The notes: a model not told the origin generated them from the letters alone. 64,000 bases of DNA from Methanomicrobium antiquum (GCF_029633915.1 NZ_CP091092.1:1116001-1180000); one strand, 5' to 3'; numbered from the stretch's first letter, positions 42,658-47,353 are shown. Numbers and translations: made by a program.

Positions 42658-42804
42658 TGGAATAAATTTTAAAAAGTATATAATATAATGATTTGGCGTG
42701 CAGTGTGTATGTATCCGGTCTGCATGCAATGTGTAAGGGAATGTCTTAAAAGAAAAATTGTTATCTCTTAATATGAATAAAGGATGTTGCAGGAGAATCT
42801 TATA

Positions 42805-43623
42805 ATGCCGGTAATAACAGTTGATGAAAAACTCTGCACGGGTTGCGGCACCTGTAGCCGGATTTGCCCGGGAAGAATTATAATACAGCCTGAGGATAAA
42901 GAAATCCCGTATGTTCCAAAAGAGCTTGAGAACATGTGCATTAACTGCGGGCACTGTGAGGCTTTCTGCCCGGAAAATGCCCTTCTTGCAGGAAGTCCGC
43001 AGGGAGTGTCAAACCCTGTTTTAAAGGGAACAGGAGAAATTTCAACAGAAGATATTGAATTATATCTTAAAAAACGCCGCTCAATAAGAAGCTACAAAAA
43101 AAATCCGGTTTCTCGTGAAATAATCCTTAATATTTTAGATATTGCCCGCTACGCACCATCAGGATGCAATGCACAATCTGTCGGGTGGACTGTTGTGTAT
43201 AAAAGAGAAAAGGTCAGAAGAATTTCAGAGCTTACCATTGAGTGGATGAAGACTCTTGTAAATACTCCTCATCCTATGAGCTGTTTTGCGCCCGGACTTA
43301 TTGATGCATGGGAGAGCGGATACGATGTCATATGCCGCGGAGCGCCCCATCTTGTCGTTGCCCATGTTCCTGAAAATAATCCTCTTGCACAGGTTGATTC
43401 AATCATTTCACTATCTCATTTTGAGATTGCCGGACAGGCTTTTGGTGTCGGTTCCTGCTGGGCCGGGTTTGTTGCAGGCGCTGCAATGTTTTATGAGCCG
43501 ATTTCAAAGGAGCTTGAAATCCCTAAAGGAAGGAAATTTGCAAATGCACTTATGTTTGGCTATCCGAATTACACACCACACGCAATTCCAAAGAGAAAAC
43601 CACTTGATGTTTCATGGATTTGA
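42805..43623 (+). CDS. Ferredoxin-nitroreductase fusion
   Basis: The protein of about 272 residues has an N-terminal 2[4Fe-4S] module (CTGCGTCSRICP and CINCGHCEAFCP), then a nitroreductase FMN domain with RRSIRSYKKNPVSREIILNI, ARYAPSGCNAQSVGW and a C-terminal GKxxxNxL-like GRKFANALMFGYP. It would reduce an unknown substrate using ferredoxin-level electrons. ATG 42805 gives MPVITVDEK, with GCAGGAG upstream. Confidence 0.9.
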   Translation: MPVITVDEKLCTGCGTCSRICPGRIIIQPEDKEIPYVPKELENMCINCGHCEAFCPENALLAGSPQGVSNPVLKGTGEISTEDIELYLKKRRSIRSYKKNPVSREIILNILDIARYAPSGCNAQSVGWTVVYKREKVRRISELTIEWMKTLVNTPHPMSCFAPGLIDAWESGYDVICRGAPHLVVAHVPENNPLAQVDSIISLSHFEIAGQAFGVGSCWAGFVAGAAMFYEPISKELEIPKGRKFANALMFGYPNYTPHAIPKRKPLDVSWI

Positions 43624-43815: not shown

Positions 43816-44562
43816 ATGAATAAAAAATACAGCTGTAAAGAGATAAGTGGTGAAAAATCCTTTCCCTGCGAAGTTAATCTTCCTGAAGAATCATCGGTTT
43901 TTGTGTATGTAAACGGAAGGCAGGCGGCAACGGCGGTTGTAAGTCCAGAATTGCTTTCAGAATACGCCGCCGGCTATCTTTTAACTGAAGGGATAATAAA
44001 AAATGCAGAAGAGATTGAATCGGTTTTTGAAGAAGGCAACAGAGTCAGCATCATAACATTAAACCCAAGAAAAATGCTTTTCACCAAAAGGACAGTTCTC
44101 TCAGGCTGTGGCGGAGGAACAATAATTGTTGATTATTCATCTATTCCTTCAGCACCAAAAGGAACTTCTTTTTCCTCAAAAAGAATTATGGAAGCGTCAG
44201 AAATAATAAAATTATATGAGAAGACAGACCTGACCGGTGAAATATACTTTGCAGGACTTTTTACAAAAGATAAAACACTTGCAGTAGCAGGCGACATCGG
44301 GCGAGAAAACGCACTTGACAAAGCGATTGGAAAGGCATTTCTTGAAAAGTGTCTTTTCCCTGAGTGTTTTGCTTCATTTAGCGGCCGTATCTCGGCTGAA
44401 ACAGTCAGAAAATGTCTCTTTGCGCAGATCCCGGTTATCGCAACAACAGGCTCAGTCACATCTCTTGCCTGTGATGTTGCACGTGAGCGGAATATGACAC
44501 TAATCTCATTAGAAGAAAACCGGATGTGCATCTTTTCAGGAGACGAAAATATTTGCGAATAG
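43816..44562 (+). CDS. fdhD: FdhD-family sulfurtransferase
   Basis: The 248-residue protein resembles FdhD, which transfers sulfur to the Mo/W-bisPGD cofactor of formate dehydrogenase. Matching parts are the leading YVNGRQAATAVVSPELLSEY, the SGCGGGTII loop (Cys97), LTGEIYFAGLFTKDKTLAVA and DIGRENALDKAIGKAFLE, and ATTGSVTSLACDVARERNMT. E. coli FdhD has two loop cysteines (CxxC); here only the first remains. The next gene includes a cysteine desulfurase, the usual sulfur donor for FdhD. Confidence 0.85.
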   Translation: MNKKYSCKEISGEKSFPCEVNLPEESSVFVYVNGRQAATAVVSPELLSEYAAGYLLTEGIIKNAEEIESVFEEGNRVSIITLNPRKMLFTKRTVLSGCGGGTIIVDYSSIPSAPKGTSFSSKRIMEASEIIKLYEKTDLTGEIYFAGLFTKDKTLAVAGDIGRENALDKAIGKAFLEKCLFPECFASFSGRISAETVRKCLFAQIPVIATTGSVTSLACDVARERNMTLISLEENRMCIFSGDENICE

Positions 44563-44644
44563 ATTTTTTAAATTTTAAAATCTAATCTGCAAAAAAGTCG
44601 CAATAATCATTACTCTTATACCCCTAAAGCCCCCTTTTATTAAT

Positions 44645-47353
44645 GTGATACGTGACCCTCCGGTTAAAAAAATACTATACTGGTGCCCGAATTGTAATCT
44701 GCCGCTGATCAATAAGAGTTGTTCATGTGGCAGTGAATCAATAAGCATACAGCTTCAAAAACCATTTGAGCTTCGGCCAGCACTGTCAGCCGATGTTACA
44801 TTAATAAAAGAGCTTCTTTTAGAAAAATACGGGCAGGTCCCGGTTCCTAAAATTATTCTTCTCAACAAATACGGCGGAGATGACAGAGCAGAGCTTGTCA
44901 TAATAAACGGAGTAAAGTTCGGCTGGCTTTTGTTTGACCCGGTTGAGAGAAAACACAGGCTGGACATTGCTGTTGATGGCATTCCTTATATCATTGGTCA
45001 TGCAGATAAGGGAATTATTGATATTGACGCAGACACCGACTATACAAAAGATAAAGGAAGAATAGGTGGCAAACGTGTTAATCTTAAAAACCCTTACGAA
45101 AACGGAACTTACATTGTAAAATTCAGAAAAAAATACGGAACGGGGATTGTAAGAGACGGCACAATAAAAGTAAAAGAGCTTGTTTCAGTTGAACCTTTAC
45201 CTCCGGCCTTAAATCCTGACTGGAAAGAGGCAATAGCAAAAAACAAAAATCATCTTAAAAATTTAGAGCACACCGCAATAAAAACAATAAAAAAACACAT
45301 GAAAGATCGCCCGACTGTCAATGTATCTTTTTCAGGCGGAAAAGACAGCACAGCAATTCTTCATCTTGCCAAAAAAGCAGGTATAAAAGACGCTTTTTTC
45401 ATTGATACAGGGCTTGAATTTCCGGAAACAATTAATTTTGTAAAATCATGCGGTGTTGAAATTATCCAAAAAGGCGGGGATTTCTGGAAGGGGGTTGAAA
45501 GGGCAGGTCCGCCTGCAAAAGACAACCGCTGGTGCTGTAAACTTCTTAAACTAAATCCACTGAAAGTTTATCTGTCCGGAATCGGCTCCTGCGTTACCAT
45601 TCAGGGAAACCGCTGGTATGAATCATGGAATCGTGCAGATCTTGGTGAGACAAGTCAGAATCCCGCTAACCCTCTTCAGCTTAATGTATCTCCGATAAGG
45701 AGCTGGAGGGCATTTGAGGTTTTCCTCTATCTTTGGTGGCAGAATAAAAAGATAAACCCGCTGTATGATATGGGTCTTGAAAGAATTGGCTGTTATTTAT
45801 GTCCTTCAATGCTTGAAAGCGAATATGAAACTATGCGTGTGCTTCATCCTGATTACACCAAAAAATGGGATGATTTTCTTGAGTCGTGGTCTGATAAGAA
45901 AGGTTATCCTCCCGAATACAAAGACTGGGGACTTTGGCGCTGGAAGGCGCTCCCGCCTAAAATGCGTGAAATTTGCAAAGAAAGAGGAATTGCAATAAAT
46001 CATGACTATACCTTAAAGACCGGACCTGCAAGAGAGAAAAATATTGATTCTGATTTTTCAAAAAATACAGGTTCAAACGAAATTTTGGAAAATTCATCTA
46101 AGACAATTAAAAAAGAGGATAAAAAACCTGAAAATATTTTTCAAAATAAAGAATTTTCAGCAGATTCAGATTTAAATTATGATATCTTAAAAATACGGGA
46201 TGATTTCTCAATTCTCGGGGATGTCATATATCTGGACAACGCCGCAACAGGTTTTTCACCACAGCAGGTTATTGATGCAATGGTTGATTTTGAGCACAAT
46301 TACCGTTCAAATGTCGGTCGCGGTGTCCACAGCCTGACACAGATTGCCTCTCAGAAATACTGGCATGCACATGAAAAAGTCTCCAGGTTCATCGGCGGAG
46401 AAAAAGGAGTAACGGTTTTTACAAAAAATACAACTGAAGCCATAAACATGGTTGCAATGGGACTTTCGTGGAAGCCAGGCGACAGAGTTATTACAACTGT
46501 TCTTGAGCACCACTCAAATCTTCTACCATGGAGGGCACTTTCAAAATACGGCGTTGAAGTGGATGTTATCGGGATTGACTCTTCCTATATGCCCAACTTA
46601 AAAGAGCTTGAGGAAAAAATAACTCCTTTTACACGCCTGGTTGCAGTGACTCATGCATCAAATGTCTTAGGAGTTGTAACGCCGGTTAAGGAAATTTCTG
46701 AGATCTGCCATAAACATGGTGTAAAACTCCTTGTTGACGGTGCACAGAGTGTTCCTCATATTCCTGTAAATGTCGCAGAAATTGGATGCGACTATTTCGT
46801 GTTTTCCGGGCACAAAATGCTCGGGCCGACAGGAACCGGCGTTTTGTGGATGAAGGAGGCCGACATCGAGCCGCTCTTTTTGGGCGGCGGGATGGTTGAG
46901 TCTGTAACAGCTGACGGCTTTACTCCTGAGACAGGCTACCGTAAATATGAGGCAGGAACATCAAATATCGCAGGCGGTATAGGGCTTGGCGCCGCAGTTG
47001 ACTATCTGACAAAAATCGGGATGGAAAACATTTTCGAGTATGAAGAAACCCTGACAAAGAGGCTGATTGATGGTTTGTCTGAAATTCAGGGTGTTCAGTT
47101 GTATGTAAACCCAAATCCAAAAAAGAGAATTGGTGTTGTATCTTTCACAGTCGAAGGTATAAATTCTCATGAGATTGCACAGATGCTTGATGAAACATCT
47201 GATATCATGCTCCGGTCAGGAAAGCACTGCTGCCATCCGCTGATGGACTTTTTAGGACTTAAGGACGGGACAGTCAGGGCAAGCATTGGCCTTTACAACA
47301 CGATGCATGAAATTGATCTCCTGATTGCGTCGGTTGAAGAGATTGTCCGGTAA
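44645..47353 (+). CDS. Fusion of PUA/PP-loop PAPS-reductase-like protein and SufS-type cysteine desulfurase
   Basis: This 902-residue protein starts at GTG 44645. Residues 12-32 form a zinc ribbon (CPNC and CSCGS). Residues about 60-190 hold a PUA-like RNA-binding region. A PP-loop ATPase domain of the PAPS-reductase type follows, with SFSGGKDSTAILHLAKKAG near residue 230, a DTGLEFPET segment and later cysteines (WCCKLLKLNP, IGCYLCPSM). A polar linker (about 465-510) leads to a group II cysteine desulfurase: DNAATGFSPQQVIDAM, HHSNLLPWR, PLP lysine in SGHKMLGPTGTG (about 723) and catalytic Cys in GKHCCHP (about 861). Joining a sulfur donor to a sulfur-using ATPase suggests direct sulfur handover to RNA or a metabolite. 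The product is unknown. Confidence 0.9.
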   Translation: MIRDPPVKKILYWCPNCNLPLINKSCSCGSESISIQLQKPFELRPALSADVTLIKELLLEKYGQVPVPKIILLNKYGGDDRAELVIINGVKFGWLLFDPVERKHRLDIAVDGIPYIIGHADKGIIDIDADTDYTKDKGRIGGKRVNLKNPYENGTYIVKFRKKYGTGIVRDGTIKVKELVSVEPLPPALNPDWKEAIAKNKNHLKNLEHTAIKTIKKHMKDRPTVNVSFSGGKDSTAILHLAKKAGIKDAFFIDTGLEFPETINFVKSCGVEIIQKGGDFWKGVERAGPPAKDNRWCCKLLKLNPLKVYLSGIGSCVTIQGNRWYESWNRADLGETSQNPANPLQLNVSPIRSWRAFEVFLYLWWQNKKINPLYDMGLERIGCYLCPSMLESEYETMRVLHPDYTKKWDDFLESWSDKKGYPPEYKDWGLWRWKALPPKMREICKERGIAINHDYTLKTGPAREKNIDSDFSKNTGSNEILENSSKTIKKEDKKPENIFQNKEFSADSDLNYDILKIRDDFSILGDVIYLDNAATGFSPQQVIDAMVDFEHNYRSNVGRGVHSLTQIASQKYWHAHEKVSRFIGGEKGVTVFTKNTTEAINMVAMGLSWKPGDRVITTVLEHHSNLLPWRALSKYGVEVDVIGIDSSYMPNLKELEEKITPFTRLVAVTHASNVLGVVTPVKEISEICHKHGVKLLVDGAQSVPHIPVNVAEIGCDYFVFSGHKMLGPTGTGVLWMKEADIEPLFLGGGMVESVTADGFTPETGYRKYEAGTSNIAGGIGLGAAVDYLTKIGMENIFEYEETLTKRLIDGLSEIQGVQLYVNPNPKKRIGVVSFTVEGINSHEIAQMLDETSDIMLRSGKHCCHPLMDFLGLKDGTVRASIGLYNTMHEIDLLIASVEEIVR

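Follow-up and report, generated by a model that had tools for sequence, protein, structure and literature searches.

A PP-loop protein fused to a SufS-type cysteine desulfurase in Methanomicrobiales and its link to FdhD

In Methanomicrobiales, a PP-loop protein that we predict to be an RNA thiolase is joined in one chain to a SufS-type cysteine desulfurase, and this desulfurase co-occurs and co-localizes with a form of FdhD that carries a cysteine in its loop. We examined the fusion in a 64,000-nucleotide stretch of Methanomicrobium antiquum DNA (GCF_029633915.1 NZ_CP091092.1:1116001-1180000; hereafter the window) and in related genomes. We put at about even the chances that the fused SufS is the sulfur donor to the neighboring FdhD and that the N-terminal half (N-half) acts as an Fe-S RNA thiolase, so that two enzymes would share one chain.

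The FdhD gene of the window is intact (43816..44562, + strand) and encodes 248 residues that match PF02634 (4.7e-47; score 161.1 against a gathering threshold of 27.2) and fall narrowly below the strict TIGR00129 cut-off (134.3 against 140.9). The protein clusters with SufS-linked FdhDs and belongs to the Cys-loop class. A single loop cysteine is retained, as a sequence-only reading of the window had noticed: Cys98 in LSGCGG (44107..44109, +), which was invariant in 14/14 SufS-linked FdhDs of one alignment, the GCGG cysteine being present in every SufS-linked FdhD. Escherichia coli FdhD receives sulfur from IscS via Cys121 (PMC10609526). The window FdhD shares with it PF02634 and the Cys121 equivalent, Cys98 being equated with Cys121 from its place in the motif rather than from an alignment with E. 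coli FdhD, but it has one loop cysteine, with GG replacing the second, and its donor gene is SufS, often fused, rather than IscS. Also widespread in the order is another FdhD-like class (for example L193:6084-6809, G000:C1:1625155), which, unlike the SufS-linked FdhDs, has no cysteine at the usual loop position; aminotransferase and dapA/lysA-like genes are found nearby. Upstream of FdhD in the window is a ferredoxin-nitroreductase fusion of 279 aa (42784-43623, +).

On the same strand, 82 nt beyond FdhD, a 902-residue open reading frame begins with GTG and runs without internal stop (44645..47353, +); a DDE transposase gene (PF01609; 47479-48906, +) starts 126 nt past its stop. All the following features lie on the + strand. 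An N-terminal zinc ribbon (residues 10-36, 44672..44752) has Cys14, 17, 26 and 28, kept in 98-99 of the fusions covering them, and is followed by a PUA-containing region (residues about 40-185, 44762..45199). The PP-loop ATP-pyrophosphatase domain (residues 191-446, 45215..45982; PF01507, PAPS_reduct, at 225-388, 4.3e-34) has an APS-reductase-like fold and contains the PP motif SGGKDS (residues 230-235, 45332..45349) and the two cysteine pairs of a predicted Fe-S site: Cys297-Cys298 (45533..45538; 103/103 covering fusions), which aligns with the CC of APS reductase, and Cys383-x-x-Cys386 (45791..45802; 104/104 fusions). A disordered linker (residues about 457-510, 46013..46174; pLDDT under 50 at 465-509) leads to the desulfurase domain (residues 511-902, 46175..47350; PF00266, Aminotran_5, at 528-893, 1.3e-125), with the PLP lysine Lys724 in SGHK (46814..46816; 101/104 fusions) and the persulfide cysteine Cys862 in SGKHC (47228..47230; 100/103 covering fusions). 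The AF2 model of the full-length protein has a pLDDT of 87 and a pTM of 0.78. The nearest NCBIfam models are PRK13795 and PRK08557, both 'hypothetical protein', for the N-half and SufS for the C-half. The coordinates and four-domain architecture proposed from the sequence are therefore right, with the PUA part significant only via a paralogue.

The C-half superimposes on solved SufS structures (5b7s, 5xt5) with Z 55 and an rmsd of 1.4-1.5 over about 388 residues, and the catalytic Lys, Cys and His positions of SufS are kept. Catalytic residues have been lost in three fused SufS domains (L060/G001, L181, L191). On TIGR01979 (SufS) the fusion scores 411.7 against a strict cut-off of 475.1; because a stand-alone archaeal SufS likewise stays below it, at 410.8, we retain the label SufS-type. 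The model for Family 2A encapsulin cargo desulfurases (NF041166) gives 397.5 against a cut-off of 800 bits. Apart from the score (412 versus 475 bits), the C-half is unlike known SufS in sitting behind a PP-loop enzyme and in having FdhD as genomic partner. We predict that it is a SufS-type cysteine desulfurase.

On the tree, the fused SufS proteins, split forms included, form a clade nested among stand-alone SufS proteins, which are mostly in tandem with FdhD (Methanosarcina-type G423, G001, G088, G120, and this genome at C1:436-438 kb). In a Methanocorpusculum-type genome (G028, L213:1344-5289) the tandem runs SufS, FdhD, two YedE/Sulf_transp halves and TusA, an arrangement that suggests a link to sulfur or selenium import. 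A genome of the same phylum outside the order (G485, L200:5049-8864) has LarE, SufS, FdhD and NcsA-type genes in tandem.

The N-half retains the motifs of an ATP-using enzyme. Among 130 relatives, SGGKDS is kept in 129, GCxxCP in 130 and RWC[C/S] in 129, and the two cysteine pairs are spaced as CC-X85-90-CxxC; the ECGxH catalytic tail of PAPS/APS reductases occurs in 0/130. A profile search against the PDB returned CysD, APS and PAPS reductases as top matches, the aligned reductases having a degenerate PP motif, and the Fe-S motif of the N-half aligns with 2goy. By fold, the N-half is closest to APS/PAPS reductases (Z 16-17), with NcsA, TtuA and LarE at about 11.8; what it shares with the reductases is their fold and the CC-CxxC cluster site of APS reductases. 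Intact SGGKDS and Fe-S cysteines without ECGxH lead us to expect ATP use and an Fe-S cluster, as in NcsA, TtuA and LarE, and the N-half is most likely an ATP-using, Fe-S-dependent RNA thiolase.

PF01472 (PUA) is significant (2.8e-16) in a 475-aa paralogue of the same genome (L067), over the region aligned to the fusion, and stays below significance in the window protein itself; at E<=1 it matched 3/14 N-half family members, one Methanosarcina relative weakly. AlphaFold models the putative PUA part as an ordered, beta-rich domain (pLDDT about 90). The PDB-sequence profile matches of the N-half included no PUA structure, and the structures listed by a structure search with the N-half were all PP-loop ones. 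Because the domain is significant in the paralogue and undetected by profile in the window protein, with no PUA structure matched, we infer both RNA binding and RNA as the target; an RNA acceptor is plausible, and archaeal s2C17 or s2U33 are candidate targets, taken from PMC7668247 and PMC5372739. The archaeal s2C enzyme has been given as 'to be determined' (PMC5372739), s2C17 has been found in M. maripaludis, P. furiosus and T. kodakarensis and is absent from S. acidocaldarius (PMC7668247), and T. kodakarensis s2C is independent of ubiquitin-like carriers (PMC11323500). In control genomes, the N-half family had matches in M. jannaschii, M. acetivorans and B. subtilis and none in H. volcanii or S. 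acidocaldarius.

Across the order, the N-half was detected in 228 of 232 genomes, usually within open frames of 850-1,140 residues, and a hand count of listed frames gave a fused frame in roughly 95 of 135 Methanomicrobiales genomes at least 90% complete; recurring in this way across the order, the fusion is not a chance joining. The best 80 loci of the named scan all came from Methanomicrobiales genera (Methanoregula, Methanoculleus, Methanocorpusculum, Methanocalculus, Methanospirillum, Methanolinea) or close MAGs, and no fusion outside the order was among the phylum-wide matches listed, whose frames had 618-772 residues and no SufS. Fused proteins form one clade on the N-half tree, with later loss or split: SufS is gone from the N-half proteins of g7 and g8, and N-half and SufS are adjoining ORFs in G154 and G010. 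These results show that the fusion arose once, in Methanomicrobiales, and that some lineages have since split, lost or inactivated it. They also speak against the idea of one closed unit that makes and uses persulfide: in several genera the N-half is kept with no SufS at all, and the SufS domain of three fusions is dead.

The N-half family has other genomic settings. An unfused paralogue, B (L101-L108, L111, L112), has grpE-dnaK-dnaJ, purH and a TIGR01177 methyltransferase gene as neighbors, and FdhD was not found beside it; at one locus (L071) the fused form and FdhD occupy this neighborhood. In Methanosarcina-type relatives (L093-L100), the place of SufS is taken by a C-terminal part that matches ferredoxin and, weakly, TBP-like domains. 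In several f6 genomes ThiM lies directly 3' of the fusion (L047, L048, L055, L057), joined by ThiE in L048 and L057.

Co-occurrence was assessed by profile searches in the 135 genomes at least 90% complete, with class-1 SufS defined by a best E below 1e-150 and Cys-loop FdhD by E below 1e-60. Class-1 SufS was present in 104 genomes, 88 of which had Cys-loop FdhD, compared with 0 of the 31 genomes without this SufS. Twelve of the 16 genomes with SufS but no Cys-loop FdhD are Methanocorpusculum-type (g17), and six of those g17 genomes have a divergent FdhD immediately adjoining a stand-alone SufS. As the genomes are related, the Fisher value of 5e-19 is not a probability, and joint absence within genera is the stronger point: SufS and Cys-loop FdhD are missing together from single members of g1, g8 and g19 and from four members of g23. 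Formate dehydrogenase (FDH; TIGR01591) was found in 119/135 genomes, including some without this SufS and without Cys-loop FdhD. The idea that Cys-loop FdhD goes with the FDH alpha subunit is therefore rejected; genomes can have FDH without the pair, and other sulfuration routes must exist.

Gene positions point in the same direction. In 44 of 48 tabulated same-contig pairs, a partial census into which distant g34 pairs were only partly entered, fusion and FdhD lie within 1.2 kb of each other, and in several MAGs their ends overlap by 1-17 nt. Four arrangements occur among the 44: the two genes converge in 34 pairs and diverge in 4, and where they share a strand FdhD is upstream of the fusion in 4 and downstream in 2. 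In Methanoculleus-type genomes, the only ones with fdhAB linkage, the fusion and fdhA flank FdhD; in G056 the order is fdhA-fdhB-fdhD, then the fusion. In most Methanoregula-type (g34) genomes FdhD does not adjoin the fusion. In many methanogens the N-half occurs with neither SufS nor FdhD, so FdhD goes with the SufS half and not with the PP-loop half, a distinction that can be drawn for the fused gene only through SufS-less lineages. As this reading predicts, G001 has a dead fused SufS alongside an intact stand-alone SufS-FdhD operon. Proximity, co-occurrence with co-loss, and the ancestry of SufS in FdhD operons together bear out the proposed link between FdhD and a desulfurase.

Most likely, then, FdhD and probably also the thiolase would draw on a single persulfide donor. 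As the simplest history, we propose that the SufS gene of a SufS-FdhD operon became joined to a PUA-PP-loop gene, which would have given the N-half a built-in persulfide donor and left FdhD with its own. The C-half would move cysteine sulfur onto Cys862 as a persulfide, to be passed to the loop cysteine of the neighboring FdhD as one acceptor; FdhD would then sulfurate the Mo/W-bis-pyranopterin cofactor destined for formate dehydrogenase. The N-half would bind ATP at SGGKDS, carry a [4Fe-4S] cluster on CC-X85-90-CxxC, hold RNA through its PUA and zinc-ribbon parts, and adenylate and then thiolate a base. Its sulfur would come from SufS via the flexible linker where SufS is present, and from sulfide or another donor where it is absent.

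FdhD could instead be a by-stander, with the SufS half feeding the N-half alone and the neighborhood a remnant of the operon in which the fusion formed. This would fit the many Methanoregula-type genomes in which FdhD is 10 kb or more from the fusion and the separate tandem SufS-FdhD pair of this genome, but not proximity held in four arrangements, joint loss of SufS and Cys-loop FdhD within four genera, or the dead fused SufS of G001 beside a stand-alone operon; we consider it unlikely. The target of the N-half is a separate question. Thiolation of a small molecule or cofactor, as by LarE, or a role in thiamine or Mo/W cofactor synthesis, would be in keeping with the LarE-type fold similarity (Z about 11.7), with ThiM-ThiE adjoining the fusion in several f6 genomes and with the LarE-SufS-FdhD-NcsA operon of G485. 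However, the paralogue has a PUA domain, the ThiM-ThiE linkage was confined to f6 among the neighborhoods read, and paralogue B lies near purH, grpE-dnaK-dnaJ and the TIGR01177 methyltransferase gene, so that a target other than RNA seems to us improbable. A PAPS/APS reductase for sulfate assimilation, which PF01507, the closest fold and the motif alignable to 2goy might indicate, is hardly credible: lack of ECGxH from all 130 relatives and an intact SGGKDS, degenerate in the aligned reductases, rule it out by motif, as the sequence-only reading had suspected.

The donor-plus-thiolase reading has parallels in known systems. The archaeal PRK13795/PRK08557 PUA-PP-loop proteins are homologous along the entire N-half (zinc ribbon, PUA region, PP-loop and CC-CxxC), but the Methanosarcina-type ones end in ferredoxin where the fusion has SufS. 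The Fe-S tRNA thiolases NcsA, TtuA and TtcA have in common with the N-half a PP-loop ATPase and Fe-S cluster cysteines (Z about 11.8), whereas the N-half belongs to another subfamily, has PUA and zinc ribbon parts rather than a LIM domain, and carries a built-in desulfurase. DndA and DndC of DNA phosphorothioation likewise pair a desulfurase with a PP-loop Fe-S protein (PMC10853773), but are encoded by separate genes and act on DNA, whereas the PUA part of the fusion suggests RNA. That paper does not mention PUA or PAPS, and no dnd genes were noticed in the fusion neighborhoods read. Open-access literature on PUA-PAPS-reductase proteins, desulfurase-PAPS-reductase fusions or MJ0066 contained no description of the fusion, which is not proof of absence.

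The genome also encodes IscU-IscS-ThiI, a second NifS/IscS-type gene, SepCysS, NcsA and the stand-alone SufS-FdhD pair. With two IscS/NifS-type enzymes, that pair, ThiI and NcsA, the organism does not lack canonical desulfurases, contrary to the setting first supposed for the fusion.

Several studied methanogens use sulfide and have no cysteine desulfurase, which bears on the question of the sulfur donor for archaeal thiolated RNA and Mo/W cofactors. M. maripaludis lacks a desulfurase, and its FdhD, which is Cys-less, has already been remarked on in that context (PMC10609526). What is new here is the fusion as an order-wide trait, a co-occurrence rule within one order, and an argument for the N-half family as a thiolase. 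Since Cys-loop FdhD is gained and lost with one SufS lineage in one order, the earlier remark becomes a rule that can be tested, with a named donor. Through the fusion, a PP-loop family widespread among methanogens can also be recognized as a probable thiolase, with a route to its target. It is a long shot that the PUA-PP-loop half is the missing archaeal s2C17 or s2U33 tRNA thiolase and that a single protein of Methanomicrobiales channels sulfur from cysteine into this tRNA modification as well as, via FdhD, into the Mo/W cofactor of formate dehydrogenase. More generally, one protein may feed two sulfur pathways.
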